Below are positions 238-28,340 of a stretch of 40,180 nt of DNA, piece after piece. Location of the stretch: the IMG/VR virus record IMGVR_UViG_3300010883_022905, positions 1 through 40,180 of that record. One strand, 5' to 3'. The notes below the pieces were generated by a model that searched no databases, was not told the DNA's origin, and saw only the letters and a program-made list of their open reading frames with translations. The position numbers and the translations under genes were made by a program. Within the stretch, counting starts at the first letter, position 1. Each line of letters starts with the position of its first letter. Source of the DNA: a virus.

Positions 238-247
238 AGGAACAGCA

Positions 248-1255: not shown

Positions 1256-1262
1256 AACTACT

Positions 1263-4469: not shown

Positions 4470-4496
4470 CGCAATTTAAGGATAGATAACTGAAAT

Positions 4497-6428: not shown

Positions 6429-7471
6429 TGAATAATTTAAATTTTGTCTTAACAGGCATGACATCCTTGAGATACTTTATACCGCTTGTTATTGCAGCAA
6501 AAAAGAGGAACATCACAAGTGTTTTTTATTTAGCCAATCATAACGGAAAATACAACTCAGTCAGACTTCCAGAAAACTTAAATTATTTGATGCAGATGTC
6601 AACTTTTTTAGAAATAAGATTTGAAGAATACAGTGATATAAATAGCTCAGTCGGTCCTGTTTTTCAAATTGAAGGTGACGGCTGGGAAGGTAGTAATACT
6701 AACTCAGGGAAGAAAATAGCGATAACATATATGTCAGACTACGCAATGAATGGCAGTTATCAAAAATATATTGAAAAAGTAGATCACGTTTTATTCCCAT
6801 CAAGAAAATTAGCTGAAGCTTATAATTGCAAAAGTCCTAAAAACATTTATGTTGGATCTCCAAAGTATGATTTTAAAATGTCTTCACGCGAAGAAATATG
6901 CAAAAAATACGGTTTAGACTCAAAAGATAGTTTTGTATTATATGCTTTTCCAAAAATTAGAGACAATAATGACGTAAATACAGCGACTATCGTAAATGAA
7001 GTTAAAAAAAGAGGCTTTAAGCTAATTTGCAAATCAAGACTTAAAGACACAATACCTGAAAAAGAAAAGGAGTATTTTGATAGTATATTCTACGATGTTA
7101 GCTGGTATCCACATACAACAATGGAGCTATTAAGCATATCAAACTTTTTAATAAACTTTGAGTCAACAACTTCAAAAGAGGCAATTCTTTTAAGAAAACC
7201 AATTTTAGATTTTAAGGTGAAACCATCTTCGAATAGCACGGGAGAGCGAATAGCAACATTTAGATTCTTGTATGATTATGCGTTTTATAGAAATATAAAT
7301 AAAGATGAAATTAATCAAGAAAACGTATCTAATGCTATAGACTTTCTTATGAATAAAAATAATACAAAACAAATTCAAGACTCCTTGTCAGAGTGTATAA
7401 AAAATGATTTTTTTGAAATTAAAGATACATGTAATAAAATTTTAGATATCGCATTCAATGTAAATCAATAA
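6428..7471 (+). CDS. GT-B-fold transferase, CDP-glycerol phosphotransferase-like
   Basis: A 347-residue protein with a two-domain GT-B layout: an N-terminal half starting LNFVLTGMTSLRYFIPL, then a C-terminal Rossmann-like half from about residue 170 (SFVLYAFPKIRDNNDV). A late motif, FLINFESTTSKEAILLRKP, resembles the donor-binding region of CDP-glycerol glycerophosphotransferases and UDP-GlcNAc 2-epimerase-fold enzymes. A cytidylyltransferase of the TagD type at 18990 could supply a CDP-linked donor, but the link is speculative. It is translationally coupled to the previous gene by a TAATG overlap. Confidence 0.6.
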   Translation: MNNLNFVLTGMTSLRYFIPLVIAAKKRNITSVFYLANHNGKYNSVRLPENLNYLMQMSTFLEIRFEEYSDINSSVGPVFQIEGDGWEGSNTNSGKKIAITYMSDYAMNGSYQKYIEKVDHVLFPSRKLAEAYNCKSPKNIYVGSPKYDFKMSSREEICKKYGLDSKDSFVLYAFPKIRDNNDVNTATIVNEVKKRGFKLICKSRLKDTIPEKEKEYFDSIFYDVSWYPHTTMELLSISNFLINFESTTSKEAILLRKPILDFKVKPSSNSTGERIATFRFLYDYAFYRNINKDEINQENVSNAIDFLMNKNNTKQIQDSLSECIKNDFFEIKDTCNKILDIAFNVNQ

Positions 7472-7492
7472 TTATTGTATTATTATAGGTCA

Positions 7493-8611
7493 ATGATGAG
7501 TGATAAATTAAACAAAACATTTAGCGGCTTTTCGCACAAAATATTCATAACAAACAAAAAGAAAAGTTTGCTTAAATCAAGATCAATAAAACAAGAAGAC
7601 GAAGTATTTAAAAACTTTAATAATGTAAAGTTTCCAAAAAATGCAATGGTTGAGCTGACAGCAGGGTGTAATCATTCCTGTGTTTTTTGCACAAATCCAA
7701 GAATGAGTATTAGTGGAAAAAATCTAGACATTGACTTGTATAGTAAATTTGTAAGTGATGCTGTAGCTTTGGGTTTAGAAGAAATAGGTTTTTATATGCG
7801 CGGAGAGCCTTTATTAGATAAAAGACTGGAGGAATTTGTACAAATAGCTTCAGACGGCGGCGTTAAGTATATCTACATAACAACTAATGGTGCATTAGCT
7901 GACATAGATAAAGTAAAAAAACTAGTCAATGCAGGTTTATCTAGTATTAAATTTTCAATCAACGCAGCAAGCAGAGAAAAATATAAACTCACGCATGGTA
8001 AAGATGAGTTTGATAAAGTTTTAAAAAACTTAAAAGATGTCTATGAATACAAAAACAAAGAAAAAAGCGATTTAAAAATAATGGCATCTTTTGTTGTAAC
8101 TAAATTTACAGAAGATGAAATAGAAGAATACAAAAAAGTTATCATTCCCTATGTAGACGATGCAAAAATTCTAGGTGTACACGGTCAAATGGGTCAAGCA
8201 TTGGAAGAATTAAAAATGCTGGAATCTACTAAGCTGACTGCTAATTTTGATAAAATAGACACATCAAAGCCCTGTCCGATGTTATGGAATAGAATTCATT
8301 TGACGCAAGACGGAATGTTATCTTTGTGTTGTGTAGACTACGATAATAATTTGATTTATGCAGACTTAAATAAAGAATCGTTAAAAGATGCATGGAATAA
8401 TCAAATAATTAGTGAAATGAGAAAGCGTCATATTGAAAAAACAATAGAAGGTACTTTATGTCACAAGTGCCTTTATGGTTCTAAAGACGCAATAAAACCA
8501 CTGCTGGAGCATGACTTTAAAAATAGAAAAAAATCTTTAGTTAAAAAGGGCGTAAAATCAGTTGTTGAAAGAATATTCAGTTTGAGAGACATCCATGATA
8601 AAAGTAAATGA
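7493..8611 (+). CDS. Radical SAM protein with SPASM-type C-terminal cysteines
   Basis: A 372-residue radical SAM enzyme. The 4Fe-4S motif C59-x3-C63-x2-C66 (GCNHSCVFC) is followed by MRGEPLLD, the GGE-like SAM strand, and ITTNGAL. The C-terminal region has the SPASM cysteine pattern (KPCPMLW, LSLCCVDYDN, TLCHKCLYG), which would hold an auxiliary cluster. ATGs at 7493 and 7496 follow a TATAGG stretch; a TTG at 7475 is also in frame. Radical SAM/SPASM enzymes make difficult C-H changes such as epimerisation, dehydrogenation or dehydration. Here the substrate is probably a sugar intermediate, given the cluster, but peptide modification is equally compatible with the domains. Confidence 0.88.
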   Translation: MMSDKLNKTFSGFSHKIFITNKKKSLLKSRSIKQEDEVFKNFNNVKFPKNAMVELTAGCNHSCVFCTNPRMSISGKNLDIDLYSKFVSDAVALGLEEIGFYMRGEPLLDKRLEEFVQIASDGGVKYIYITTNGALADIDKVKKLVNAGLSSIKFSINAASREKYKLTHGKDEFDKVLKNLKDVYEYKNKEKSDLKIMASFVVTKFTEDEIEEYKKVIIPYVDDAKILGVHGQMGQALEELKMLESTKLTANFDKIDTSKPCPMLWNRIHLTQDGMLSLCCVDYDNNLIYADLNKESLKDAWNNQIISEMRKRHIEKTIEGTLCHKCLYGSKDAIKPLLEHDFKNRKKSLVKKGVKSVVERIFSLRDIHDKSK

Positions 8612-9221
8612 TTTTAAAAAATTAGAAATTGCTGTAGTGATACCTGCAAGAGGCGGATCGAAAAGACTCAAAGATAAAAACATATATCCAGTCTTAGGTA
8701 AACCCATGATTAATTGGGTTCTTGAAGAAGTTCTAGCATCAAAGCATATTAATAGTGTGTATGTTACTAGTGAAAGTGAAAAAATACTAAATACTACGTT
8801 GAAAGATAAAAAAATAATTTGTATAAAAAGACCAAAACAACTATCTAGTGATGATGTTGAAAAAATGGATGCAATAGCACAAGCTGTAGAACACATAATT
8901 TCAGATTGCAATTTAAAAAATCCTGATATTGTAATCTCACTCCAAGCTAATTCTCCGTCATTGAAAATAGCTGATTTGGACAATGCAATTAATTTTTTTT
9001 ATGAAAATCTTTATCTTAAAAAACCTGTATGCGAACTAATTTCAATAGGGGAAGATAACTTACAAAATGCTTGTTTTAGAATAATGACACAAAAGACAGT
9101 ATTCCAAAAAACTTTAAGCACAAACGTGGGCGTGTACTTTACTAATTGTCATGATGTACACACAATAGAAGACGTAAAGATTGCAGAAGCACAAATACTG
9201 AGCAAACATGTTAAAATGTAA
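8595..9221 (+). CDS. neuA: CMP-nonulosonate (sialic acid-type) cytidylyltransferase, NeuA-like
   Basis: A 208-residue CMP-sugar synthetase. The nucleotide-binding signature IPARGGSKRLKDKNI spans 16-30, the LGKPMINWVLE segment follows, and VISLQANSPS matches the family's QPTSP motif. Near the end, THxxN-like elements are replaced by NVGVYFTNCHDVHTIEDV. NeuA-type enzymes couple CTP to the anomeric hydroxyl of a nonulosonic acid, giving the CMP donor. It is slightly shorter than typical NeuA. It overlaps the radical SAM gene by 17 bases and the next gene by 14. With the NeuB-like gene two positions downstream, it forms the end of a nonulosonate pathway. Confidence 0.85.
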   Translation: MIKVNDFKKLEIAVVIPARGGSKRLKDKNIYPVLGKPMINWVLEEVLASKHINSVYVTSESEKILNTTLKDKKIICIKRPKQLSSDDVEKMDAIAQAVEHIISDCNLKNPDIVISLQANSPSLKIADLDNAINFFYENLYLKKPVCELISIGEDNLQNACFRIMTQKTVFQKTLSTNVGVYFTNCHDVHTIEDVKIAEAQILSKHVKM

Positions 9222-10299
9222 AGTATACTTATCAGATGAAGGTTTTGGTCATTTAGTGCGACAAGAAGCTATTATAAAAAGCATGTTAAGATTAAATAAT
9301 AAAATACACTTCACAATACAGACAAAGAATAAATTTAAGTTTGCTGTTGAAAAGTTTTCAAACTATAAAAACATAAGTTATATTGAAAAATTCAATAATA
9401 TTGAAACAGTAAAGAATATTGATGGTTCTCTAAATCTTCAAAAGACAAGATACTATTTTGACAATTATCTTAATAATAGTGAAACATTTATCTTAGAAGA
9501 GCTCAAAGATTTTAATTATGATTTTGTCATTTCAGATGCAGTTCCTGAAGCCCATCAAATTGCAAAAATTGCCAAAGTTCCTTCTTTTTTAATCTTTCAC
9601 TTTAATTGGGCGTGGTTTTGTAAGAAAGTATTTCCAGATTTAAATGATGTTTCATCTCATATGTTAAAGATGTATAAGCATGCTAGTTTGACTTTCTTAC
9701 CTCCTCTTGAACCTTTAGAAACTACAGTCAATTTTAAGGATAACGGCACCAATGTACCATTTATTATAAATGATTTTGATAATTTTGATATTGTGCAAAC
9801 AAAAAAGAAAAAAATATTAATTATGGATAACGGCACATCAACATTATCAAAAATAATAATATCTAACTTTGACAAATTTGAATCACTAAATGATTATCAT
9901 TTTTATATACCGAAAAATCTTGCAAAAGCAGATGCTAGCAATATTACCCGTGTTGAGGGTGTAAAAAGAATTCATTCTCATATTCCAAAAATGGACGCAA
10001 TTGTAGCGAGAGCAGGCTATAATACATTAACAGAGTGTATAATATCAAAGGTACCCGCGCTCTTTGTAAATGAAACAAAGAATCCAGAAATAGCACACAA
10101 TATCAGTCAGGTTTTTAGTTTAGGCTTGGGTGGTAAAATGACTGTAAAAAATTACCAAGATAATTTTGTAAATTGTTTTGAAAGTTTTATGAAAACTGAT
10201 TATGATAACATTAAGAAAAATCTTAACAGTGCTAACTTTGAGAAAAATGGTGCTGAAGTTATAAGCAAGAAAATATTAAACTATTTAGGAAAACTATGA
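9208..10299 (+). CDS. PseG/MurG-like GT-B protein (nucleotide-sugar hydrolase or glycosyltransferase)
   Basis: A 363-residue GT-B-fold protein. The N-terminus KVYLSDEGFGHLVRQEAI has the GxGH-R layout of PseG, the UDP-sugar hydrolase of pseudaminic acid synthesis, and of GT28 enzymes. A C-terminal donor-site region reads MDAIVARAGYNTLTECIISKVPALF, as in MurG and PseG. It lies between CMP-transferase and NeuB-like genes, exactly where a pathway hydrolase would be expected, which favours the PseG reading. A glycosyltransferase role remains possible. It overlaps the next gene by 4 bases. Confidence 0.7.
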   Translation: MLKCKVYLSDEGFGHLVRQEAIIKSMLRLNNKIHFTIQTKNKFKFAVEKFSNYKNISYIEKFNNIETVKNIDGSLNLQKTRYYFDNYLNNSETFILEELKDFNYDFVISDAVPEAHQIAKIAKVPSFLIFHFNWAWFCKKVFPDLNDVSSHMLKMYKHASLTFLPPLEPLETTVNFKDNGTNVPFIINDFDNFDIVQTKKKKILIMDNGTSTLSKIIISNFDKFESLNDYHFYIPKNLAKADASNITRVEGVKRIHSHIPKMDAIVARAGYNTLTECIISKVPALFVNETKNPEIAHNISQVFSLGLGGKMTVKNYQDNFVNCFESFMKTDYDNIKKNLNSANFEKNGAEVISKKILNYLGKL

Positions 10300-11267
10300 A
10301 TAACAGTGTAAACATAATAACAGAACTTTGTCAAAATCACCTTGGCGATAGAGCATTACTTAGAAAAATGGTAGAAGAAGTTGCTTCAACAGGCGCACAG
10401 TACTGCAAGATTCAATCAATGCAAGTTGCTGATCTTACTTTTAGAAAAAGGTTTGAAACAGGAATCAGCGATAAAGATGGAAATATTACTACAATCAAAA
10501 GACCTTACAAACAAGAATACGAAAGACTTGCACCGTTAGATCTTTCTGATGATGATCATAAATATTTTATTGACATATGTCATAAAAACAATGTATTACC
10601 AATGACAACTGCATTTACAAGAAAAAGAGTTGAATTCCTAGCAAGTCTAGACTGGGGTCATAAAAATATAAAAATTGCTAGCTTTGATTGCAAATCAAAA
10701 CCTTTATTGAAGGACTTGGTTGATGCAGGTTTTGAGCATTTAATAATATCTACAGGTTCAACTTTTGATGAAGAAATAGCAGAAACAGCAATGTTTTTAT
10801 CTGAACTTAAGTGTAGATTTACTTTTTTGCATTGTGTATCTGTTTACCCTACACCGCTAAAGGAAGGACATACAGATAGAATAGAATACTTAAGAAGTTT
10901 TACAGATAGTGTAGGGTTTAGTGAGCATTCAAATTATGAGTTAGATGGTCTAAAACTTTCTACGATGGCACTGGATAGAAATATTGACTGGATAGAAAGA
11001 CATTTTACCTCTGTGGACAAAAGCAAGACAAGGGATGGTCCTGTTTCTTTAAATAAGGCACAATTGAAAGAATTGGTTGCGTTGACAAAACTAAGCAATA
11101 AACAACTTAAAGATCATATTTCAAAAAACATTACATTAGAAGAACAAAAGTCAATAACGGGCAATCAAAGCAGAAGTTTATCACCAGTTGAATTGTTAAA
11201 TCGTGATTATTACCATGGCAGGTTTGCTAACATAACTGGCGATAGTATTGCTTATAATTGGGAGTAA
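10296..11267 (+). CDS. neuB: NeuB/PseI-type nonulosonic acid synthase without a clear SAF domain
   Basis: A 323-residue TIM-barrel synthase that condenses PEP with an N-acyl sugar to make a nine-carbon ulosonic acid. Visible motifs are ITELCQNHLGD (E10, N14, H15), CKIQSMQ, the FLHCVSVYPTP strand, GFSEHSN and WIERHFT, all family hallmarks. The standard enzymes are about 345-350 residues and end in an antifreeze-like (SAF) domain that contributes to the active site of its dimer partner. Here the tail after SLSPVELL is short and not recognisably SAF. The barrel call is firm; the exact product (sialic, legionaminic, pseudaminic or other) is not readable from the sequence. Confidence 0.88.
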   Translation: MNNSVNIITELCQNHLGDRALLRKMVEEVASTGAQYCKIQSMQVADLTFRKRFETGISDKDGNITTIKRPYKQEYERLAPLDLSDDDHKYFIDICHKNNVLPMTTAFTRKRVEFLASLDWGHKNIKIASFDCKSKPLLKDLVDAGFEHLIISTGSTFDEEIAETAMFLSELKCRFTFLHCVSVYPTPLKEGHTDRIEYLRSFTDSVGFSEHSNYELDGLKLSTMALDRNIDWIERHFTSVDKSKTRDGPVSLNKAQLKELVALTKLSNKQLKDHISKNITLEEQKSITGNQSRSLSPVELLNRDYYHGRFANITGDSIAYNWE

Positions 11268-11268
11268 C

Positions 11269-12462
11269 ATGAAAGAAAAGTTTTTAATTAAAGAATTTGT
11301 TGAGATGTTACATTTTGACTTTAAAAATATATCAAATGATTTAAAAATAGAATTAAATGAATCTGAATCATCATACAGTAAAGTCTGGAAAGAACATAGT
11401 AGTAAGTTTGATAACTATATTATTAAAAATATTGAAGAGTTTGAGAATAATTTAAATATTTTTTTAAATGAAACAACTAAAGAAGACATATCAAGTCTAC
11501 TTTTAAAAGACAAAGAAAACTTAGCAGAATTATTAAACACTTTTGATAGTATTAGATTTAAATTGATTAATAATGATGAATATAACTCAAAGTTAGAAGC
11601 AAAATGTCTAGAACATCTAGTCAAAGATGGCTGTGCTATTTATAAAAGCTTATTTTCAGAAGAAGAACTAGCAGAGCTTTTAAAGTTTACTAAGGTTATA
11701 GAAGACGTACTTAATGTTGATATTAAAAAAGCTGGGTATGTTAATGTACAAGTTAATCAAAAAGGACAAATCACAAATATTTGGAACAGTTTTCAGAAAG
11801 TTGATGACGGCCAGTTGCGAATGCAATCAAAATCTGTTGGCTTTTTCCCACCAGGATCTGAAGTAATAATTAAAAATAAAAGTGTAAAAAGTATATTTGA
11901 GAATTGGTATGTAAATAGTAACTGCAATTTTCATAGAACAAATTTAGAATGGATTAGTAAGAGTGATACTAGTCATAATGGTTGGCATTTAGATACAGTT
12001 AGAGACCAGCTTAAAATAATGGTACTCTTGAATGATGTTGATTTAGATGCTGCACCTATTTTTTGTGCAAAAAAGTCGCACTTAAACAATACAGAAATTA
12101 AAAAAGAAACTATTCATGACTTGTTTGTTTCAGGGCACAGAAAAAGAAAAGAAGGCGTTTTTTATAAAAAACACGCAGCAGCTCTTGAGCACAGACATGT
12201 AGGTTACTTAACAGATAGTGACACTGATAATTTACCAGCTAATATCAATAATGACCCTATAGAAATAAAAGGAGTTGTTTTTGATAAGCTGGTCGGTACA
12301 GGAAAAGCAGGCGATTGTATATTTTTTGAGTCGATGGGGTTTCATTCAGGTAATAGATCAACTGACAAAACAAGGAAAACAATTGTACTTGTAGTTGATC
12401 CCGTTAACACATCCTTTAAGAATAAATTTATCGATAAATTCGCTGGGAAGGTAGGTGTTTAA
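11269..12462 (+). CDS. Phytanoyl-CoA dioxygenase (PhyH)-family oxygenase with N-terminal extension
   Basis: A 397-residue protein. From about residue 120 it follows the PhyH pattern: LVKDGCAIYKSLFSEEEL, the iron ligands H240-x-D242 (in GWHLDTVRDQ), and H359 in SMGFHSGNRSTDKTR with a following Arg for 2-oxoglutarate. The first ~115 residues are charged, probably helical, and match nothing I recognise. The ATG at 11269 after GGAG at 11261-11264 is better than the in-frame TTG at 11248. PhyH enzymes hydroxylate small molecules, including sugar and natural-product intermediates. This is the second iron dioxygenase of the cluster, adjacent to the NeuB-like gene. Confidence 0.82.
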   Translation: MKEKFLIKEFVEMLHFDFKNISNDLKIELNESESSYSKVWKEHSSKFDNYIIKNIEEFENNLNIFLNETTKEDISSLLLKDKENLAELLNTFDSIRFKLINNDEYNSKLEAKCLEHLVKDGCAIYKSLFSEEELAELLKFTKVIEDVLNVDIKKAGYVNVQVNQKGQITNIWNSFQKVDDGQLRMQSKSVGFFPPGSEVIIKNKSVKSIFENWYVNSNCNFHRTNLEWISKSDTSHNGWHLDTVRDQLKIMVLLNDVDLDAAPIFCAKKSHLNNTEIKKETIHDLFVSGHRKRKEGVFYKKHAAALEHRHVGYLTDSDTDNLPANINNDPIEIKGVVFDKLVGTGKAGDCIFFESMGFHSGNRSTDKTRKTIVLVVDPVNTSFKNKFIDKFAGKVGV

Positions 12463-13671
12463 ATGAATGTTTGTTTCTCAATTAATCGTGCAACTGATAT
12501 ACCTTTAGCACAAATTCTTTATTTAAAAAAACCAGACAATGTTAACATGAAGATTGTTGCTTCTGTTTTTTCTCATACTGATGAATACTACTGGAAAAAG
12601 AGTAAATCACTACAAATTTGGCTTCACGAAGAAGATATTAATCAACTACAAGAATATTTTGGTGAAGACTTTACTCCTTGTTATAATGTTAAAGAGTTTA
12701 GAGCACAGTTTAAAAGTTGCCAGATAGGAATATTTTCAGGAAGAGAACCCTTTATATTTAAAAATATTTGTTCAAAAATAGTTTGTTTAGACGTTGTAGG
12801 TGATTACTTTCATAGGTATCTAGACTTTTTAAGTATTGCAGACAAGCCAGAAAATATTAAAATTGTTATGAATTCCAGGCTATGGCTCGAACGTCATAGG
12901 TTTCGGTCTAGTTATATTGATACGATAAAAAAGCATGAAGATAAATTTTACTTTTGTGATCCTTGTAAAGACTATAAAACAATATTAGATGTGAAAGGCA
13001 AAGACGAAATTAAGAAAAATTTAGGAATACCTACTGACAAACCTATTGCATTTGTAAGTCTTAGGCGAGCTGACCCTCATCTGACAATGTTTGAAAGTAA
13101 TGAGAGTTTTTATAATGCTGCAATCAAAGGTATTGAAAAACTTAAAGATAAGGGTTTTTACATAATTTCTCGTCGAAGAAAAGGTGTTGATGACTTAAAA
13201 GTAAGACGTGTAAATTCACCAGTTCACACAAAATACGAAGAATTTTCAAAACTAATTGATTTTGAAATGGATGGGTGGGATGGTTTTCCTTCAAAGATAT
13301 GGATAGGTTGTTACATATGTGATGTTATGCTTATAACAGATATGACTGGGTTATCTAGAAGAGAAGGTACAATATTTGAAACACCAATATTGCTAACAGA
13401 TTATGATGAGCATGTATATAATAAGAATCTCAATGATAAGTTCGGTTGGGATGCTGGAATGAAAGATTTACATAATAAACAGCTTATGACAAACGTACAT
13501 GAGGAAGCTAGAACATTTATAAATTATAGTAAGCCGGGTAAAGATAGCAAAGTTTTTATAAGCAAGAAAACACAGTATAAAGAAAGAATGAATAAATACA
13601 AAAAAGATTGGCACCAAGGTAATGGGTCAAAAGAAATGTGGGATAATGTAATCTTAGATAATTGGGAGTAG
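12463..13671 (+). CDS. Putative GT-B-like transferase
   Basis: A 402-residue protein of uncertain family. A central strand DKPIAFVSLRRADPHLT opens a likely second Rossmann domain near residue 200. A later segment, VMLITDMTGLSRREGTIFETPILLT, looks like the acceptor/donor helix of CDP-glycerol-phosphotransferase-like GT-B proteins. There is no signal peptide or membrane segment. It begins directly at the previous stop (TAAATG). Given its neighbours it is probably a glycosyl- or glycerophospho-transferase, but this rests on fold pattern and context rather than a diagnostic motif. Confidence 0.5.
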   Translation: MNVCFSINRATDIPLAQILYLKKPDNVNMKIVASVFSHTDEYYWKKSKSLQIWLHEEDINQLQEYFGEDFTPCYNVKEFRAQFKSCQIGIFSGREPFIFKNICSKIVCLDVVGDYFHRYLDFLSIADKPENIKIVMNSRLWLERHRFRSSYIDTIKKHEDKFYFCDPCKDYKTILDVKGKDEIKKNLGIPTDKPIAFVSLRRADPHLTMFESNESFYNAAIKGIEKLKDKGFYIISRRRKGVDDLKVRRVNSPVHTKYEEFSKLIDFEMDGWDGFPSKIWIGCYICDVMLITDMTGLSRREGTIFETPILLTDYDEHVYNKNLNDKFGWDAGMKDLHNKQLMTNVHEEARTFINYSKPGKDSKVFISKKTQYKERMNKYKKDWHQGNGSKEMWDNVILDNWE

Positions 13672-13676
13672 TATAA

Positions 13677-14060
13677 ATGAAAGAATTTTTAAAATTAGTT
13701 GATGATCAAGAGCGAAAAGTGGTTGCTATAGACTTTGATGGGGTAATACATAGAAACTCAAAAGGTTTTTTTGATGGTACTGTTTATGATCCGCCTATTG
13801 AAGGTTCAATAAATGCAATAAAGGAAATGTCAAAAAAGTATGATCTGGTTATTTTTACTTGCAAAGCTCTAGAAGATAGACCTTTAATAAATGAAAAAAC
13901 AGGAATTCAATTAATAAACAAATGGTTACAAGACTACGAAATTAAAAAGTATATTAAAGAAGTGACTTTTATAAAGCCTAGGGCATTTTTATACATCGAT
14001 GACAAGGGTTACAGGTTCACAGGATGGAAAGAAGCACTTAGCTTTATTGAGGAATTATAA
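13677..14060 (+). CDS. Small HAD-superfamily phosphatase
   Basis: A 127-residue minimal HAD protein. Motif I is VVAIDFDGVIH with D19 and D21, motif II is LVIFTCK, and the last motif is FLYIDDKGY, giving the acidic pair for magnesium. YDPPIEGSINAIKEM is typical of small phage and bacterial HAD enzymes with no cap domain. Directly before an epimerase, a PEP-condensing synthase and a CMP-transferase, it could remove the phosphate from an ulosonate-phosphate, the step KdsC performs in KDO synthesis. It is shorter than KdsC and not an obvious orthologue, so this role is inferred. Confidence 0.8.
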   Translation: MKEFLKLVDDQERKVVAIDFDGVIHRNSKGFFDGTVYDPPIEGSINAIKEMSKKYDLVIFTCKALEDRPLINEKTGIQLINKWLQDYEIKKYIKEVTFIKPRAFLYIDDKGYRFTGWKEALSFIEEL

Positions 14061-14064
14061 TATT

Positions 14065-15069
14065 ATGAAAGTTTCGCCGTCATTATACTCTTCAAAAAAT
14101 AGTGTACTCGATACAGTAAAACTTGTCCGGACAACATTTTCCGACTATATGCATATAGACTTCTATGAAAAAGATATCGAAGAAATTAAAAAAGATATAT
14201 CTGTGATTAGAAAAAATTCTGATTTAAAAATTGATATGCATTTAATATGCAATAATCCAACTTTGTTTACAGCTGAACTCAAAGCAATTAAACCAGAGTA
14301 TGTCGCAATTCAGTTTGAGAGCCTTGAAGACGATCAAATGTTTATTTCAATGTTAAACGAGCTTCCAAACGTAGGTCTGGCATTGACACAAAAAACAAAA
14401 TTTAGTGACGTTGACATATTAATAAAACAAGCTGATTATGTTTTGTTAATGACAACTACACCTGGTGTTTCTGGCTTTAAATTTTCAAAAGAAAGTTTAA
14501 ATTGGATAAAGCGTTTTAAAGTAAAGTATCCAAGGAAGCGAGTGCATGTTGATGGTGGCGTTAATGACAAGGTCGCTTTAGAATTAAAGGCAGTTGGTGT
14601 TGATTGTGTAGTATCAGGTTCATATCTAATGAATTCCACATCAATGATTGCTTCTGTTTTAGCAATGAAAGGTTTTAGAAAGAACATTAAGGCATGCGAA
14701 TTAATGATTGACTTATGCTACTTACCTGTTGTTGAATACAAAGCTAATTTAAAAAATATTTTAATTGCAATCAACGAAGGACAGCGCGGCTTTGTTATAG
14801 TTGAAGATGAAAAAGATTGGGGTATTGTAACAGATGGTGATATTAGAAGATTTATGATAGAAACAAGTAGTGATAAGATATTTGAACAAAAATGCGCCAA
14901 TAAAATTATAAACAGTAAGCCTTTCTCTGTCAAGTGGGATGATAATTTTGAAACAATACTTAAACAGATGTTTGAATTGAAAATAGAAAAAAAGTTGAAA
15001 TTTGTTGTAGTAACCAAATATAATAGACCTGTAGGTATTTTGCCGATAGAAACAATAACAAAAGGATAG
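14065..15069 (+). CDS. Ribulose-phosphate 3-epimerase-like domain fused to a CBS-domain pair
   Basis: A 334-residue fusion. Residues 1-210 are a ribulose-phosphate-epimerase TIM barrel: VSPSLYS at the start, metal ligands H30-x-D32, H59 (DMHLICNNP) and D163 (HVDGGVN), the LMTTTPGVSGFKF phosphate loop and VVSGSYLM. All four metal ligands of the family are present. From about 225 a CBS pair follows, with GIVTDGDIRRF closely resembling the CBS half of KdsD/KpsF arabinose-5-phosphate isomerases. The ATG at 14065 after GAGGAA is preferred to an in-frame start at 13999. It probably interconverts a pentulose or hexulose phosphate feeding the next enzyme. The sensed ligand and exact substrate are unknown. 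Confidence 0.88.
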   Translation: MKVSPSLYSSKNSVLDTVKLVRTTFSDYMHIDFYEKDIEEIKKDISVIRKNSDLKIDMHLICNNPTLFTAELKAIKPEYVAIQFESLEDDQMFISMLNELPNVGLALTQKTKFSDVDILIKQADYVLLMTTTPGVSGFKFSKESLNWIKRFKVKYPRKRVHVDGGVNDKVALELKAVGVDCVVSGSYLMNSTSMIASVLAMKGFRKNIKACELMIDLCYLPVVEYKANLKNILIAINEGQRGFVIVEDEKDWGIVTDGDIRRFMIETSSDKIFEQKCANKIINSKPFSVKWDDNFETILKQMFELKIEKKLKFVVVTKYNRPVGILPIETITKG

Positions 15070-15071
15070 AA

Positions 15072-15893
15072 ATGAGTAATTGGAAATTTTCTAGAAAGAA
15101 TTTTAGTAAAACGCGTCATGTCAATGTAGGTAATTTGACAATAGGCGAAGAAAATAAAATAACTTTAATAGCCGGCCCGTGTAGTATTGAGTCATGGGAA
15201 CAAATAACAAAAGTTGCTGAAATGTTAAAGTCTTTAGGTTTGAATTATTTGAGAGCAGGATGCTTCAAACCCAGGACTAGTCCGTATTCTTTTCCCGGCC
15301 TTGAACACGAGGGTCTGAAGATGTTAGCAGAGATAAAAGATATATACGGATTAAAAATCGTAACTGAAGTTAAAGATGCCACACAAGTTGAAGATGTTGC
15401 TAAAGTAGCTGATGTAATTCAAATAGGCGCTAAAGCAATGTGGGATTACGGTATATTTAAAAAGCTAGCTGATCTAGATAATGCAGTTTTAATAAAAAGA
15501 TCTTTTGCTGCAACCACGCAAGAAAGCTGTCAAATGGCAGAATATCTTTTTAATGCAGAAAAATACAACGTGATGATATGTGAAAGAGGCATACGAACAT
15601 TTGAACCGAATTCAAGATTTACGCTAGATTTGTGCGGTGCAGCTTGGATTAAAAAAGAAACAAATATTCCGCTTGTTTTAGATCCTTCGCATGCAATGGG
15701 ATATAGCTACGGAGTACCTGAGTTGACACTTGCTTGTACAGCAACAAAACCATCAGCTTTGTTGATAGAAGTACATCCAGACCCCAAAAATGCTAAATCA
15801 GATGCTTCACAACAGTTAAATTTTTCTGAATTTAAGAAACTTTATTTAGATGTTAAAAAAGTAGCAGAAGCTGTTGGATGTGAAGTCATATGA
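15072..15893 (+). CDS. DAHP-synthase-type (class I-beta) 2-keto-3-deoxy acid synthase
   Basis: A 273-residue PEP-condensing aldolase. It carries AGPCSIES with C37, KPRTSPYSF at 66-74, ERGIRTFE at 171-178, DPSHAMG with H207, IEVHP with E233, and SDASQQL with D244, so the Cys/His/Glu/Asp metal set is complete. KPRTSPYSF is the DAHP-synthase form rather than the KDO-8-phosphate-synthase form. However, the usual GARNMQNF motif reads GAKAMWDY and LLKRG reads LIKRS, so the aldose-phosphate may differ from erythrose 4-phosphate. There is no regulatory domain. AAAGGA precedes the start. Its position between an epimerase and a CMP-transferase argues against an aromatic-amino-acid role. Confidence 0.88.
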   Translation: MSNWKFSRKNFSKTRHVNVGNLTIGEENKITLIAGPCSIESWEQITKVAEMLKSLGLNYLRAGCFKPRTSPYSFPGLEHEGLKMLAEIKDIYGLKIVTEVKDATQVEDVAKVADVIQIGAKAMWDYGIFKKLADLDNAVLIKRSFAATTQESCQMAEYLFNAEKYNVMICERGIRTFEPNSRFTLDLCGAAWIKKETNIPLVLDPSHAMGYSYGVPELTLACTATKPSALLIEVHPDPKNAKSDASQQLNFSEFKKLYLDVKKVAEAVGCEVI

Positions 15894-16591
15894 AAATAGT
15901 AGGTTTCATTCCAGCGAAAGGTAATAGTACAAGATTACCGTATAAGAATAAGAAAAAAATCTTAGGCGTGCCTATCTTTTTATGGGCTGCTAATAATTTA
16001 TCAAGAGTCATACCTAGAGGAGATATATACATTGATAGTGACGACAATGAAATACTTGAACTAGCTATATTAAACGGCTTCAATACAATAAGTCGACCAT
16101 CGTACTTAGCAAATAATGATACTGACGGCAATAAACTTTTAGAATGGGAAGCTAGTAATGTAGAAGATGCTGATATATACATCCAACATTTGCCACCCAT
16201 GATATTTTGTAAGAAAGAAACAATACAGAAAGGTATAAACGCTATCCGTTCAGGTTTTCAATCTACTGTGTATGTAAACGAAGAAAAAAGTTATATATGG
16301 AAGGACGAAAAACCTACTTACGATACAGATAATATACCTAATAGTTACAACTTAAAACCAACAACAACAGAATGTATGGGCTTGTATGTTGTTGATGCAA
16401 AAGCTTTTAAAAATTCAAAGAAAAGAATTAACAAAAAGTATAAAATCATCAATATTGATCACTTCGAAAGAAATGATATCGATTATGAAGATGATTTTAC
16501 ACAAGCAAGCGCATTAGCAGAATACTTTAAAAGAAACAAATATGAACAATATTATGAAGGAATAGAGACGATATATGGAAAACTTCAATAG
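15890..16591 (+). CDS. Second CMP-sugar (ulosonate) cytidylyltransferase
   Basis: A 233-residue nucleotidyltransferase of the NeuA/KdsB fold. The N-terminal loop FIPAKGNSTRLPYKNKK binds CTP, IYIDSDDNE follows, and IYIQHLPPMIF takes the place of the QPTSP strand. TTECMGLYVVDAKAF and IDHFERNDIDYEDDF near the C-terminus match the metal-binding end of CMP-sialate synthetases. It differs clearly from the NeuA-like protein at 8595, so the cluster probably activates two different ulosonic acids. It overlaps the DAHP-type synthase by 4 bases and the next gene by 17, placing it as the activating step of that cassette. Confidence 0.83.
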   Translation: MKIVGFIPAKGNSTRLPYKNKKKILGVPIFLWAANNLSRVIPRGDIYIDSDDNEILELAILNGFNTISRPSYLANNDTDGNKLLEWEASNVEDADIYIQHLPPMIFCKKETIQKGINAIRSGFQSTVYVNEEKSYIWKDEKPTYDTDNIPNSYNLKPTTTECMGLYVVDAKAFKNSKKRINKKYKIINIDHFERNDIDYEDDFTQASALAEYFKRNKYEQYYEGIETIYGKLQ

Positions 16592-17213
16592 AAGTATTTG
16601 GCAAAATGCATGCACGGGTATGATAACAGACGAGTGTGATACATTAAAGATAAATTATACTTGTTTGACTAATTACAATTCAAATTCAGACAGTCCTATA
16701 TTTTTCGGTAATGTTAGAACAGTTGACTTAGAAGTAGGCGACTATGTTGATGAAAACATTAGTCTAGGTTTAGGGTTTTTAGATGAGTTGGGTGTCGGTG
16801 ATGTCCTCTTTGTTAACGGTTCAAGTAAATTTGCTTATTTTGGCGAGCTAATGACAAGATACTCAATTAAGAAAAATATTGAAGGTGTTATAATAAACGG
16901 CGCTACCCGAGACAACAACTACACTTTTGGTAAAGACTTAGATATACTTTTTAAGATAAAGACACCTGTTGATATCAAAGGTAGGGGCCGAGTAAAATCA
17001 GTTGATACAAGCTTGATTATAGATGGAAACTCAATTCAATCTTTTAGTTTTGTATTTGCTGATAGTGATGGTGTTGTTATTATTAATAACAAAGATTTAA
17101 ACGTTGTTCAAAATGCTGTAAAATCTATAATAAAAAAAGAAAAAACTATAATTGAGGCAATTGAAAACAATGTTTCAATTAAGGACATAATTGATAATTT
17201 TAAATCATTTTAG
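16575..17213 (+). CDS. RraA/HMG-aldolase-family protein
   Basis: A 212-residue protein with the RraA-like fold: GVGDVLFVNGSSKFAYFGEL, then EGVIINGATRDNN with R112 and D113, and later VFADSDGVVII. The Arg-Asp pair and the Gly-Glu loop are the family's pyruvate- and metal-binding elements in 4-hydroxy-4-methyl-2-oxoglutarate aldolases. Other members regulate RNase E or have no known reaction. Here it closes a cassette that makes 2-keto-3-deoxy acids, which are pyruvate aldol products, so an aldolase role in making or recycling such an acid is plausible but unproven. Confidence 0.75.
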   Translation: MENFNRSIWQNACTGMITDECDTLKINYTCLTNYNSNSDSPIFFGNVRTVDLEVGDYVDENISLGLGFLDELGVGDVLFVNGSSKFAYFGELMTRYSIKKNIEGVIINGATRDNNYTFGKDLDILFKIKTPVDIKGRGRVKSVDTSLIIDGNSIQSFSFVFADSDGVVIINNKDLNVVQNAVKSIIKKEKTIIEAIENNVSIKDIIDNFKSF

Positions 17214-17226
17214 AAAAGGAAAAAAT

Positions 17227-18081
17227 ATGAAAATAGGGATTGTAGGTAATGGGTTTGTAGGCTCAGCAATTATGCATGGCTTTATCTTGCATACTGACGA
17301 CATAATGATTTATGATAAAGACCCGAAGCGGTCTACACATAGTTTAGGTGAATTGGTTTTACATTCAGACGTTGTATTTATTTGCGTCCCAACACCGATG
17401 TTCGAGTCGGGAGAATGTGATCTTTCAATTGTCGAGGGTGTTGTTGATGAAATAATGAACAACTATCCTCTCACACATAGACGTAAAAATCAAGTACTGG
17501 TAATTAAATCAACTGTTGTTCCTGGCACAACTGAGAATTTAGCAGCAAAATACCCTGAAATGAATTTTGTTTTTAATCCTGAGTTTTTAACTGAGCGGAA
17601 AGCAAGGTTAGACTTTATAAACACATCTAGGATTGTATTGGGTGGTAATGATAAAGCTTCATTGCGTAAGGTCGAAGATTTGTATAGATTAAGGTTTCCA
17701 TATACAAACATTATAAAAACAGATTTTGGAACTGCACAGTTAATTAAGTACATGGCAAATTGTTTCTTTGCGACTAAAGTTTCTTTTATGAATGAAATGT
17801 TTCAGATTTGTGAAGCAATAAACGGTAATTGGGATGATGCGCTTGAAGGTTTTATTACTGACGGGAGGATTGGAAATTCTCATATTGATGTTCCGGGTCA
17901 TGACGGAGATTTTGGTTTTGGAGGTAAGTGTTTCCCTAAAGACTTGAATGCAATGATTAAGAAAACAGAATCACTTGGCATCAAGGCCAGTGTTATGAAG
18001 GGCGCATGGGAGAAAAATAAAGAAGTAAGGCGTGACTTAGACTGGTATGACATACCCGGCGCGGTTAGTAAAAATGATTAG
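17227..18081 (+). CDS. ugd: Short UDP-glucose/GDP-mannose dehydrogenase lacking the C-terminal domain
   Basis: A 284-residue protein. The NAD-binding start KIGIVGNGFVGSAI, the FICVPTPM strand, STVVPGTT, NPEFLTER and the catalytic C235 in GFGGKCFPKDLNAM all mark a nucleotide-sugar 6-dehydrogenase. Usual family members run about 390-450 residues and have a C-terminal nucleotide-binding domain; only 49 residues follow the catalytic cysteine here. The next gene starts inside this one, so no lost remainder lies downstream. The ATG at 17227 follows an AAAAGGAAA ribosome site. The expected product is a UDP-hexuronic acid if the short form is active. Confidence 0.85.
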   Translation: MKIGIVGNGFVGSAIMHGFILHTDDIMIYDKDPKRSTHSLGELVLHSDVVFICVPTPMFESGECDLSIVEGVVDEIMNNYPLTHRRKNQVLVIKSTVVPGTTENLAAKYPEMNFVFNPEFLTERKARLDFINTSRIVLGGNDKASLRKVEDLYRLRFPYTNIIKTDFGTAQLIKYMANCFFATKVSFMNEMFQICEAINGNWDDALEGFITDGRIGNSHIDVPGHDGDFGFGGKCFPKDLNAMIKKTESLGIKASVMKGAWEKNKEVRRDLDWYDIPGAVSKND

Positions 18082-19000
18082 CGTTGTTACGGGCGGTTGC
18101 GGATTTATCGGTAGTCACATAGTAGATAAATTAATATTATTAGGGCATGAAGTCCGTGTTATTGATGATTTATCAGCACAAGAAAATGAAAGTTTTTATT
18201 ATAATATAAAAGCCCAGTATTTGTGTAAGGATATAGCTAAGGATGATTGTAGCTCCATTTTTAAAAATACTGATTATGTTTTTCATCTTGCAGCTAGAAG
18301 CAGAATTCAGCCGACTATAGGTTCGCCTAATGAGTGCTTCGAGGTCAATGTTGTAGGCACACAGAGGGTACTAGAATGGTCTAGGTTGAACTCTGTAAAA
18401 AGAGTAGTATATTCAGGTACGTCTTCCCTTTATGGTCACCAGAATCCAATACCGTTTGCACCGAATATGCCTTCAGACTGTTTAAATCCATACTCGATGT
18501 CAAAATGGATGGGCGAGCAAGTTTGTAAACTTTATAACCAACTTTACGGAGTACCAAGTATTGTACTTAGATATTTTAATGTATACGGGCCTAGAGAGCC
18601 TATTAAGGGTGAATATGCACCTGTCATTGGATTGTTTAAAAGACAAAATAAACGTGGAATCCCAATGACAATTGTTGCACCCGGAGATCAAAGAAGAGAC
18701 TTTACTTATATAGATGATGTTATCGAGGCAAATATTTGTGCAATGAATTCATCAGTTATTGATATCCCATACAAGATATACAACGTAGGGACAGGTAAAA
18801 ACTATTCTATGTACGAATTAGCTGAAATGATATTAAAAGGTTCAACATCTAGTGATAATATGCAGGAAGGACAAAAAATAGAAGTTATTGACCCAAGACC
18901 GGCTGAAGTTAAAGAAACATTAGCTGATATTAGAGAGACGATAAAAGATTTAGATTGGTTGCCGAAACATAGCTTGAAGGATAAAATAAATGCCTACTGA
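18074..19000 (+). CDS. Extended SDR sugar epimerase/dehydratase (UDP-glucose 4-epimerase-like)
   Basis: A 308-residue extended short-chain dehydrogenase. The NAD loop is TGGCGFIGSH near residue 6, HLAARSRI follows, then the catalytic SGTSSLYG serine region and NPYSMSKWMGE with the Tyr-x3-Lys pair. RRDFTYIDDV and YNVGTGKNYSM are standard for nucleotide-sugar epimerases. It overlaps the dehydrogenase gene by 8 bases, so a two-step pathway such as UDP-hexose oxidation followed by C4 epimerisation is likely. The exact substrate (UDP-Glc, UDP-GlcNAc or their uronic acids) cannot be read. Confidence 0.88.
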   Translation: MISVVTGGCGFIGSHIVDKLILLGHEVRVIDDLSAQENESFYYNIKAQYLCKDIAKDDCSSIFKNTDYVFHLAARSRIQPTIGSPNECFEVNVVGTQRVLEWSRLNSVKRVVYSGTSSLYGHQNPIPFAPNMPSDCLNPYSMSKWMGEQVCKLYNQLYGVPSIVLRYFNVYGPREPIKGEYAPVIGLFKRQNKRGIPMTIVAPGDQRRDFTYIDDVIEANICAMNSSVIDIPYKIYNVGTGKNYSMYELAEMILKGSTSSDNMQEGQKIEVIDPRPAEVKETLADIRETIKDLDWLPKHSLKDKINAY

Positions 19001-19451
19001 TTATTTAAATCAAGATCGTAAATCAATAGTAAAAAGAATAGGTTTAGTTGCCGGAAATTTTGATGTAATTCATCCCGGGTACGTAAGATTGTTTGAGGAC
19101 GCAAAAGAAAACGCATGTAATTTTCTAGTTGTTGCGCTACAAGGCGATCCCACAATAGAAAGACCTTACAAGTGCAAACCTGTCCAAAGTGTAGAAGAAC
19201 GTGAGTATATTCTTCGTTCTATTAGACATGTTGACGATATTGTTCATTATAACACTGAAAAAGAATTACTCGATATTGTTATAAATTTAAATCATTCTGT
19301 GAGGATTGTTGGGAGTGATTACAAGGATCTTGACTTTACAGGAAAAAAGCATGAAAAAGAAATTTACTACCATAATAGAAATCATAAATATTCATTAACT
19401 GATTTAAAAAAGAGAATAACTGAGCAGATGTTAGCGCAAGATAAAGATTGA
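18990..19451 (+). CDS. TagD/HldE-like nucleotidyltransferase
   Basis: A 153-residue cytidylyltransferase-like protein. GNFDVIHPGY at 22-31 occupies the position of the GxFDxxHxGH signature, and FLVVALQGDPTIERP, VEEREYILRSI, IVGSDYKDLDFTG and the final HKYSLTDLKKRI follow the glycerol-3-phosphate cytidylyltransferase pattern. The second His of HxGH is a Tyr here (Y31). The family makes CDP-glycerol, ADP-heptose or related activated alcohols. It overlaps the epimerase gene by 11 bases and is the last gene of the glycan run before the first sizeable gap. Confidence 0.8.
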   Translation: MPTDYLNQDRKSIVKRIGLVAGNFDVIHPGYVRLFEDAKENACNFLVVALQGDPTIERPYKCKPVQSVEEREYILRSIRHVDDIVHYNTEKELLDIVINLNHSVRIVGSDYKDLDFTGKKHEKEIYYHNRNHKYSLTDLKKRITEQMLAQDKD

Positions 19452-26000: not shown

Positions 26001-26492
26001 ATGGGACATTCTCAATTTAATTTTAAGAGTAGCGGCGTTAGGACAACTGATCATCGTTTTACTAAAACACCACCGTCAACTGACAGACCAATTGGTATAA
26101 AAACACCACTAGAGGTAGGTGAAGACTTATTTAAGATGCATACTAGTCCTATAAGACAGCTAACTGATAACTTTAGGAACTTAATCATGACTAATCATGG
26201 CGAGCGACTTGGTATATTTAATTTTGGTGCAAATCTTAATAGTATAGTTTTTGAATACAGTAATTCTTCTAATTTTGAACAAGTTGTAGGTGACGCAATA
26301 ACAAATGTGACACAAAAATACATACCTAGTATTACAATAACAAACATAAGTTCTGTCTTTATTGATGAAGCGGAAAAGAACGATGCAAACAGAATAGGTT
26401 TGGCAAAAGTTAGAATTAGGGTTGACTATGTAATACCTAAATTTAAAAGTCCAACACTTGCGCTAGAAGTTGACTTAAGTCTTGGGGGATGA
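26001..26492 (+). CDS. 25: T4 gp25-like baseplate wedge protein
   Basis: A 163-residue protein of the gp25/GPW family. The centre carries MHTSPIRQLTDNFRNLIMTNHGERL, then GIFNFGANLNSIVFEY, which is the family signature: a helix that leads into the lysozyme-like fold used in the sheath-initiating wedge. The C-terminal strands (GLAKVRIRVDYVIP) fit the family as well. The N-terminal ~45 residues extend beyond the minimal domain. In contractile tails gp25 contacts gp6 and gp53; the gp6-like gene follows 3 bases downstream. Confidence 0.9.
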   Translation: MGHSQFNFKSSGVRTTDHRFTKTPPSTDRPIGIKTPLEVGEDLFKMHTSPIRQLTDNFRNLIMTNHGERLGIFNFGANLNSIVFEYSNSSNFEQVVGDAITNVTQKYIPSITITNISSVFIDEAEKNDANRIGLAKVRIRVDYVIPKFKSPTLALEVDLSLGG

Positions 26493-26495
26493 TAA

Positions 26496-28340
26496 ATGGC
26501 CAGAAACATTAAAAAAGAAGTACAAAAACACAAAGATCGAAGTTACACAAATAAAGATTTTAACTCATTACGGAATGAACTTCGAAGATACGCATTAACT
26601 CATTTCAGTGATAACGTAATTGATTTCTCTGATTCTAGCATGGGAGGTTTGATTTTAGACTTAGCTTCTTACGTTGGTGATGTAATGACTTTTTATATGG
26701 ATCATCAGTTTAATGAAAATTCTATAGAAAATGCTGTTGAAAGAAGTAATGTTGAGAGGCTGATTAGGGAAGCCGGACTAGAATTGCCTGGTGCATCACC
26801 TTCGTATTCTGATGTAAATTTATCGATAGTAGTACCTTCCCAACTAGTAAACGGTGAGTATGTACCTCAGGCAGCAGCATTACCAATTGTAAAAAGAAAT
26901 TCTGTTTTTAGCACGGCTACTGGTGTTGAGTTTGTACTTTTAGAAGACGTTAACTTTGGTCATCTCGATGATGAAGCAAGTTTGACTGCAAATGTTAGAA
27001 TTGGTGCACTAAGCAGCGGCAATCCTGTAAACTTTGTTTTGACAAAAAATGGTATAGCTTCTAGTTCAAAAATTACAACAGAAGCTATTACAATAGAAGA
27101 TAAACTTATACCTTTTAGAATGGTAACATTGGCGCAAGAAAATGTTACAGAAATTATCTCTGTAACGGATACTTTTGGCGATAGTTACTATGAGGTTGAT
27201 ACACTGTCTCAAGACACTGTATTTAAAACTTTTGAAAATAATTCTTATGATGCTACAGATGTTCCATTTAGAATGGAGCTTTTGCATGCACCAAAACGTT
27301 TTGTAAAGATTAGAAGCGCAAACACAGGAAAGACATCACTTAGATTTGGTTCTGGAAATGAATCAGCTTTTGATGAAGATGTTATTCCTGACCCTAGTGA
27401 ACATGCAATTAGACTGTTTGGCGATCGATCTTCACTTTCAACAGTAGCAATAGATCCTAATAGCTTTTTAACAACACAAACTTTAGGGATATCTCCGCAA
27501 AATACAACCTTATCCATAACATATAGATATGGTGGTGGATTAAGTCATAATGTTTCTGCAGGTTCAATAGCATCAGTAAAAGTTCTATTAACTAGTTTTA
27601 ATTCATCATTAGCAGCTTCAACTGAAGCTTCTGTTAGGGCTTCTACAGCAGTCATAAATCTGCGCAGAGCTTCAGGTGGTGAAGATGAACCAACTTTGGA
27701 AGAGTTAAGAAATGTTGCCATATTTAATAGGAATTCACAGAATAGAATTGTTACACGTGAAGATTTAATAGCGCGAGTATACTCAATGCCTTCAAATTTT
27801 GGTAGGGTGTTTAGAGTTGCAGTAGCTGACAATCCCAGAAATCCTCGAGGGGCTCAATTACATATAATATCGCGAACAAACAATGGTAACTTAGTTACCT
27901 CAACAGACACATTGAAACAAAACTTGGCAAAATATTTAAATAAGTTTAGATTAGTATCTGATGCTATTGACATTCTCGATGCAATTGTAGTAAATATCGG
28001 AATAAATTATTCAGTAACTGTTGAAAAAGGGTATAGAAGTCCAGTGGTATTAGGCGCTATTAGCTCAAAATTAGCAAGCTATTTTAATATTAGAAGCTTT
28101 CAAATAAACAAACCTATTATAGTTGGCGAAATAGAAAATTTAATATTAAATATCCCGGGAGTTGTTTCATTAATCAGTATTAACATTGTTAATAAAACAA
28201 ACGTGCAAGATAATAAAATATATGGTACATACAATTTCGACATCAAACAAAACTTAGATAGAGGTATGCTATTTCCACCTATAGGTGGGATATTTGAAGT
28301 AAAATATCCAAATGAAGATATTACCGGTAGAGGTGTATAA
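26496..28340 (+). CDS. 6: T4 gp6/baseplate J-like wedge protein
   Basis: A 614-residue protein of the baseplate J/gp6 type. The N-terminus YTNKDFNSLRNELRRYALTH, then DSSMGGLILDLASYVGDVMTFYMDHQFNE, is the conserved start of T4-like gp6. The C-terminal half has the J-family pattern TREDLIARVYSMPSNFGRVFRVAVADNP and a DAIVVNIGINYSVTVEKGY strand region. gp6 dimers form the inner ring that holds the wedges of the contractile-tail baseplate. A GGGGATGA ribosome site precedes the ATG. The next gene overlaps by one base. Confidence 0.9.
   Translation: MARNIKKEVQKHKDRSYTNKDFNSLRNELRRYALTHFSDNVIDFSDSSMGGLILDLASYVGDVMTFYMDHQFNENSIENAVERSNVERLIREAGLELPGASPSYSDVNLSIVVPSQLVNGEYVPQAAALPIVKRNSVFSTATGVEFVLLEDVNFGHLDDEASLTANVRIGALSSGNPVNFVLTKNGIASSSKITTEAITIEDKLIPFRMVTLAQENVTEIISVTDTFGDSYYEVDTLSQDTVFKTFENNSYDATDVPFRMELLHAPKRFVKIRSANTGKTSLRFGSGNESAFDEDVIPDPSEHAIRLFGDRSSLSTVAIDPNSFLTTQTLGISPQNTTLSITYRYGGGLSHNVSAGSIASVKVLLTSFNSSLAASTEASVRASTAVINLRRASGGEDEPTLEELRNVAIFNRNSQNRIVTREDLIARVYSMPSNFGRVFRVAVADNPRNPRGAQLHIISRTNNGNLVTSTDTLKQNLAKYLNKFRLVSDAIDILDAIVVNIGINYSVTVEKGYRSPVVLGAISSKLASYFNIRSFQINKPIIVGEIENLILNIPGVVSLISINIVNKTNVQDNKIYGTYNFDIKQNLDRGMLFPPIGGIFEVKYPNEDITGRGV

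Follow-up and report, generated by a model that had tools for sequence, protein, structure and literature searches.

A putative CMP-ulosonate cassette in a phage and a related Bacteroidota module that appears to displace KdsD and KdsA

Introduction

What could a phage make with five sugar-related genes packed end to end? The genes lie at positions 13,677 to 17,213 of IMG/VR record IMGVR_UViG_3300010883_022905; the window analysed here is the complete record of 40,180 bases. A sequence-only reading had proposed that they encode a route to a cytidine monophosphate (CMP)-activated ulosonic acid, which would follow the logic of 3-deoxy-D-manno-oct-2-ulosonic acid (Kdo) synthesis with non-orthologous parts. 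Kdo is the sugar by which Gram-negative bacteria anchor their outer coat. Its four-enzyme synthesis is regarded as a hallmark shared by nearly all of these bacteria, and as an antibiotic target. Our analysis indicates that the cassette very probably makes a CMP-activated 3-deoxy-2-ulosonic acid in the Kdo reaction order, with first two catalysts that are unrelated to the usual ones or re-purposed. The case is carried by gene content, gene order, co-occurrence, mutual exclusion and conserved catalytic residues, all read from sequence.

Results

The cassette

The five open reading frames (ORFs) are all on the + strand and overlap or lie a few bases apart:

13677..14060, + strand: small HAD-family phosphatase of 127 residues (motifs, PHROG 1238)
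14065..15069, + strand: ribulose-phosphate 3-epimerase (RPE) barrel fused to a KdsD-type CBS pair (Ribul_P_3_epim and CBS profiles)
15072..15893, + strand: phosphoenolpyruvate (PEP)-condensing synthase of 273 residues, of the 3-deoxy-D-arabino-heptulosonate 7-phosphate (DAHP) synthase Ibeta type (DAHP_synth_1, TIGR01361)
15890..16591, + strand: CMP-sugar synthetase, NeuA/PseF type (CTP_transf_3), with a 4-bp overlap with the synthase
16575..17213, + strand: RraA-like protein, class II pyruvate-aldolase fold (Pfam RraA-like, E=5e-18)

ORF positions, profiles, HAD motifs and PHROG 1238 agree with the five adjacent genes and the domains that had been proposed. The mechanically called epimerase ORF begins at 13999; the Met aligned with the start of its homologues is at 14065.

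Like the canonical Kdo pathway (KdsD, KdsA, KdsC, KdsB and then WaaA), the cassette has a CBS-fused first enzyme, a PEP condensation and an activation with CMP, in the same reaction logic. The parts are different, however. An RPE barrel replaces the SIS isomerase and a DAHP synthase (DAHPS) of the beta type replaces the KDO8P synthase, the CMP-synthetase is NeuA/PseF-like, and the HAD protein lies outside the KdsC family.

The synthase

The window synthase matches DAHP_synth_1 with E=5e-59 and scores 277.6 bits on TIGR01361, above the cut-off of 267.75, but only 116.8 bits on the KDO8P-synthase model TIGR01362, far under the 314-bit cut-off. With the type Ibeta DAHP synthases of Thermotoga and Pyrococcus (PRK08673, TIGR01361) it shares the fold, the metal and PEP residues and the acceptor motif KPRT, which reads KPRTSPYS in the window. 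KPRT is kept in the module synthase, whereas KdsA of the same bacteria has (K/D)KANR(S/T). The module enzymes differ from type Ibeta in signatures of their own near the acceptor site, GAKAM(Y/W)D (GAKAMWD in the window), RFTLDLCG and SHAMGY, and in sharing an operon with the epimerase-CBS gene. The window protein is 53-58% identical to the bacterial module enzymes. The latter have 332 residues and, as in type Ibeta, an extra N-terminal domain. Phage copies lack this domain (273 and 275 residues) or shorten it (311 residues), and in the window the ferredoxin-like regulatory domain is missing. In a tree of DAHPS sequences, the phage rows were left unplaced owing to long branches. Judged by these features, the window synthase would be the enzyme that takes the place of KdsA.

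The epimerase

The second cassette protein matches Ribul_P_3_epim (E=8e-25) and CBS (E=2e-5), and its C-terminal part matches KpsF/KdsD models. It scores 89.6 bits on the ribulose-5-phosphate 3-epimerase equivalog TIGR01163, below the 212.6-bit cut-off, and matches the KdsD model TIGR00393 (SIS plus CBS) through the CBS part only. As in the RPE family (PF00834, which includes allulose-6-phosphate 3-epimerase), the barrel has the four metal and acid residues, H31, D33, H58 and D159 in the numbering of homologue L101, and these are kept in 63 of 63 sequences. The pocket, in contrast to that of the family, is uniformly altered: two of the three active-site Met residues are replaced (by Asn and Ile), a Leu has become Tyr and one His is changed, and the phosphate loop PGFGGQ of RPE reads PGQSGG or PGVSG. 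Uniform changes beside a conserved quartet suggest that the enzyme probably acts on a different substrate. It also differs from the family in its fused CBS pair and in coexisting with an ordinary, separate RPE gene in L101 and L132. An AlphaFold model of L101 (predicted local distance difference test score 90.2) matches RPE structures; its best match beyond these is the CBS pair of Methylococcus arabinose-5-phosphate isomerase (4o9k), a structure reportedly solved with CMP-Kdo. We regard the protein as a candidate aldose-phosphate 2-epimerase in KdsD's place.

The phosphatase, the CMP-synthetase and RraA

The window HAD protein carries the motifs AIDFDG, TCK and YIDD and matches PHROG 1238 (E=1e-15), with a weak GmhB-like NCBIfam match and no match in Pfam or the PDB. 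It belongs to a family other than KdsC and is a candidate sugar-acid phosphatase in the KdsC role. The CMP-synthetase matches CTP_transf_3 (E=1.8e-9) and a PseF-like model (E=7e-12). Plasmid matches to it were rejected as cassette relatives; they lead to capsule clusters with NeuB. The RraA-like protein is 40% identical to homologues in two viral contigs described below, L013 and L264, and GE-x20-RD is conserved among them. E-x20-R-D is present in 3 of 3 phage RraA proteins; the motif of HMG/CHA-type (4-hydroxy-4-methyl-2-oxoglutarate/4-carboxy-4-hydroxy-2-oxoadipate) RraA aldolases is D-x20-R-D. Linkage of RraA to the module was seen only in phages, three in number.

Relatives in phages

Relatives were sought by motif-pattern scans of viral and genome collections. 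Single- and two-protein scans of both gave none before the pattern targeted the subfamily motif SHA(M/T/S)GY. An X-masked artificial alignment served only to steer the pattern scan, and matches were confirmed with real sequence. A parallel in gene order is L264, a 10-kb phage contig that encodes UvsX and UvsY:

3274-4239: RPE-CBS
4241-5176: DAHPS
5166-6365: CMP-synthetase fused to a KdsC-family phosphatase
6346-6987: RraA

The order epimerase-CBS, DAHPS, CMP-synthetase, RraA is common to L264 and the window, and this recurrence indicates that the grouping in the window is not due to chance. The CMP-synthetase half of the fusion is 33% identical to the window enzyme, and the fusion directly supports the reading that a ulosonate phosphate is converted to a ulosonate and then to a CMP-ulosonate. 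Another viral contig, L013, was the one close relative that a viral scan gave; it has adjacent genes for RraA (40% identity), an RPE without CBS (31%) and DAHPS (53%), in that order. An acetolactate-synthase-type thiamine-diphosphate enzyme follows them in place of a CMP-synthetase (L013 8840-10645).

Two other groups of viral records were met. DAHPS and RPE records of Listeria, Enterococcus and Staphylococcus 'phages' appear to be bacterial contamination and served for generic comparison only. The IMG/VR contigs L015-L021 hold a different conserved phage cassette (for example L015 5907-10938, L018 6322-10096), made up of a CTP_transf_3-GT2 fusion, one small ORF, a DAHPS-like protein in which FRAGTYP replaces KPRTSP, and a methyltransferase whose N-terminal part appears to be Cys-rich and similar to a zinc ribbon. 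This seems to be a further CMP-ulosonate system of phages, one in which the transferase is fused.

A module of Bacteroidota

A scan with the pattern [LIV]DPSHA[MTS]GY gave 462 genome loci encoding relatives, and the best 80 were analysed for neighbours. Nearly all of these 80 are Bacteroidota. RPE-CBS adjoins DAHPS in 72 of them, and in 55 the next gene encodes a phosphatase of the KdsC family (above the TIGR01670 cut-off). The 80 were ranked by a joined RPE and DAHPS query, a ranking that favours loci where the two genes are adjacent. An unbiased estimate comes from the Chitinophagales: of 32 genomes picked out solely by the epimerase profile, 30 have a DAHPS, detected independently, beside the epimerase gene. 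In genome G264 (locus L195) the genes form a run of four, kdsB, RPE-CBS, DAHPS and kdsC; kdsB adjoins the module in no other examined locus. The epimerase-DAHPS core is mainly a Bacteroidota module that is present in few phages, which corrects the earlier description of a phage-borne set. Cultured bacteria with the module include Taishania pollutisoli (L149) and Fluviicola. Several module contigs among L101-L180 are named Thalassovita, Kuenenia, Sphingomonadales or Rickettsiales; by sequence they fall among the Bacteroidota, and they seem to be wrongly binned or named.

Mutual exclusion with KdsA and KdsD

Among 110 Chitinophagales genomes, 32 have the epimerase-CBS, 68 have KdsA (called by PF00793 score and frame length) and none has both (Fisher 2.8e-19; Fisher values ignore shared ancestry and describe the pattern, not the number of independent events). 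A KdsD match was found in 0 of the 32 module genomes, compared with 20 of 24 KdsA genomes, 16 of these above cut-off, while KdsB (TIGR00466) was detected in 28 of 32 and 23 of 24, respectively. In a set of twelve module genomes, all have KdsB and the Kdo transferase WaaA (12/12 each), with no KdsA and no KdsD above cut-off. Most of them also encode a second synthase of about 360 residues, of the DAHPS/chorismate-mutase type (types checked by motif). A joined RPE-CBS/KdsA query across 199 Flavobacteriales genomes gave a single match per genome in 188 of 190; among the 150 matches listed, 69 are RPE-CBS and 81 KdsA, and no genome among these has both.

In a tree, KdsB sequences from genomes with the module are interspersed with those from KdsA genomes, and the invariant residues are the same in both, suggesting that the product is Kdo or very like Kdo. 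Residues that would tell C7 from C8 users of KdsB by group were sought, and none was convincing. KdsA and KdsD are missing where the module occurs, whereas KdsB and WaaA are retained; the module therefore looks like a non-orthologous replacement of KdsD plus KdsA, and in many Bacteroidota it appears to displace both. The co-occurrence search that the sequence-only reading had suggested, in bacteria as well as phages, supports its shared pathway: the Bacteroidota operons, the run of four, the exclusion, and the order and fusion in L264 point the same way.

The surrounding sugar island

Baseplate-wedge genes at 26001..28340 (+ strand), gp25-like at 26001-26492 (PHROGs 261/43) and gp6-like at 26496-28340 (PHROG 219), indicate that the record comes from a contractile-tailed phage. 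By profile searches, the cassette sits in a sugar-gene island of ~20 sugar-related genes that spans about 182-19451. The island also encodes a radical SAM/SPASM protein (7475-8611) and a DegT-type aminotransferase (2021-3163), which suggests unusual aminosugars. Two of its genes belong to a sialic-acid-like pathway:

8595..9221, + strand: second CMP-sugar synthetase, outside the cassette (CTP_transf_3, E=7.5e-22; PseF-like)
10296..11267, + strand: NeuB-family PEP synthase (NeuB, E=4e-39)

Together with a glycosyltransferase they make up a second ulosonate pathway (8595-11267), 2.4 kb upstream of the cassette. The phage therefore seems equipped to make two CMP-ulosonic acids. Sialic, pseudaminic and legionaminic acid cassettes (NeuB, NeuA/PseF) resemble the five-gene cassette in the CMP-synthetase family and in PEP-condensing logic, but NeuB-type synthases use amino sugars and the cassette synthase is of DAHPS type. 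Other phages, for example Synechococcus phage S-SCSM2R, also carry ulosonate genes; these are annotated as canonical KdsA and KdsB, and their synthases are only about 25% identical to that of the window.

Discussion

Proposed pathway

We infer the substrates, products and regulation of the pathway, as well as its use by the phage, from the data above. The RPE-barrel/CBS protein would invert the stereocentre beside the carbonyl of a sugar phosphate and so yield the right aldose phosphate. It would most likely act as an aldose-phosphate 2-epimerase, on ribose-5-phosphate to give arabinose-5-phosphate or on erythrose-4-phosphate to give threose-4-phosphate, with the KdsD-type CBS pair probably sensing the CMP end product. 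The DAHPS-type synthase would then join the aldose phosphate to PEP, a HAD phosphatase would take off the phosphate (of the KdsC family in bacteria and L264, another small HAD protein in the window), and the CMP-sugar synthetase would activate the acid. In many Bacteroidota the core would stand in for KdsD and KdsA and supply ordinary KdsB and WaaA. The phage may have taken a copy of the core, trimmed the synthase of its N-terminal regulatory domain, and gained its own CMP-synthetase and RraA, probably for decorating or remodelling a surface polysaccharide. RraA might, as a guess, be a C4 epimerase or an aldolase that works on the acid. Kdo logic from non-orthologous parts is strongly supported at the pathway level; the HAD protein of the window is not of KdsC type.

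Several observations weigh against this scheme. RraA is without a clear place in it, and no CMP-synthetase is visible in the L013 stretch examined. KdsB was not seen in four module genomes, possibly because of incomplete assemblies, and two Flavobacteriales genomes (G452 and G483) each gave two weaker, ambiguous matches. In three genomes that have KdsA, a DAHPS of the module subfamily stands alone, with no epimerase, so the subfamily is not exclusive to the pathway. In a phylum-wide Bacteroidota sample, 65 of 248 genomes are without KdsA and only 2 of these have the module; KdsA absence alone therefore does not imply the module. The 63 genomes that have neither KdsA nor epimerase-CBS may be without Kdo, incomplete or using a further route. 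In the stand-alone DAHPS (L218, L219 and L220 of G304, G295 and G266), SHAMGL/F replaces SHAMGY, possibly an ancestral or shikimate form.

Which acid is made

The product could be true Kdo. The epimerase would turn ribose-5-phosphate into arabinose-5-phosphate, formally the allulose/fructose-6-phosphate 3-epimerase reaction on a substrate minus C1, and a re-tuned synthase would accept it, so that phage and hosts make CMP-Kdo. The retained KdsB, with its unchanged invariant residues and its intermixing with KdsB of canonical genomes, speaks for this, as do the retained WaaA, the use of KdsC-family phosphatases and the resemblance of the CBS pair to that of KdsD. However, the synthase has the four-carbon-acceptor motif KPRT and not KANRS/T, and the epimerase scores higher on ribulose-phosphate 3-epimerase than on allulose-6-phosphate epimerase models. 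True Kdo is a serious possibility, short of an even chance.

The retention of KPRT favours a four-carbon acceptor, and the conservation of KdsB indicates a Kdo-like ring. Both would be satisfied if the epimerase converted erythrose-4-phosphate, which is ribulose-5-phosphate minus C1, to D-threose-4-phosphate, and the synthase then made 3-deoxy-D-lyxo-heptulosonate-7-phosphate. By known sugar chemistry, 3-deoxy-D-lyxo-heptulosonate corresponds to Kdo without its C8 and shares the stereochemistry of its ring. In many Bacteroidota this acid would be placed on lipid A by KdsB and WaaA, while its CMP form would be made by phages. We put this forward tentatively, and hold the two readings about equal.

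A seven-carbon acid with shikimate stereochemistry is unlikely. An ordinary RPE activity would here boost xylulose-5-phosphate and erythrose-4-phosphate, the synthase would make DAHP, and the dephosphorylated acid (DAH) would be activated to CMP-DAH. The synthase score above the DAHPS equivalog cut-off, the KPRT motif and the intact RPE catalytic residues fit this, but L101 and L132 have a separate ordinary RPE gene and the epimerase pocket is uniformly altered. Moreover, the ring stereochemistry of DAH differs from that of Kdo, so an unchanged KdsB would fit it poorly.

It is far less probable that the phage genes raise aromatic amino-acid flux through the shikimate pathway next to an unrelated CMP-synthetase and RraA. 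The DAHPS annotation is in line with such a role, and a synthase that has lost its N-terminal regulatory domain would be suited to overproduction. However, most host genomes have the separate DAHPS/chorismate-mutase-type synthase, profile searches recognised no shikimate gene in the window besides the DAHPS-type synthase, the module excludes KdsA and KdsD, and the L264 operon has the CMP-synthetase-KdsC fusion. A fortuitous string of unrelated genes is barely credible: the large polysaccharide island could supply one, but the gene order recurs across independent phages and bacteria and is neither unique nor random.

Implications

The open-access papers that were searched gave no description of the RPE-CBS/DAHPS route. 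The discovery reaches beyond the original finding in one phage, since many Bacteroidota appear to use the module in place of KdsD and KdsA. If the replacement is true, annotations such as 'no Kdo pathway', 'second DAHP synthase' and 'ribulose-phosphate epimerase' are wrong readings in large clades, and the identity of the inner-core sugar in these abundant bacteria can be tested directly. If the erythrose-4-phosphate reading is true, these bacteria would not all have Kdo as their inner-core acid, and the sugar would be a non-oxidised relative of plant 3-deoxy-D-lyxo-2-heptulosaric acid (Dha). The phage copies point to a route that is mobile and so complete that it brings its own CMP activation.

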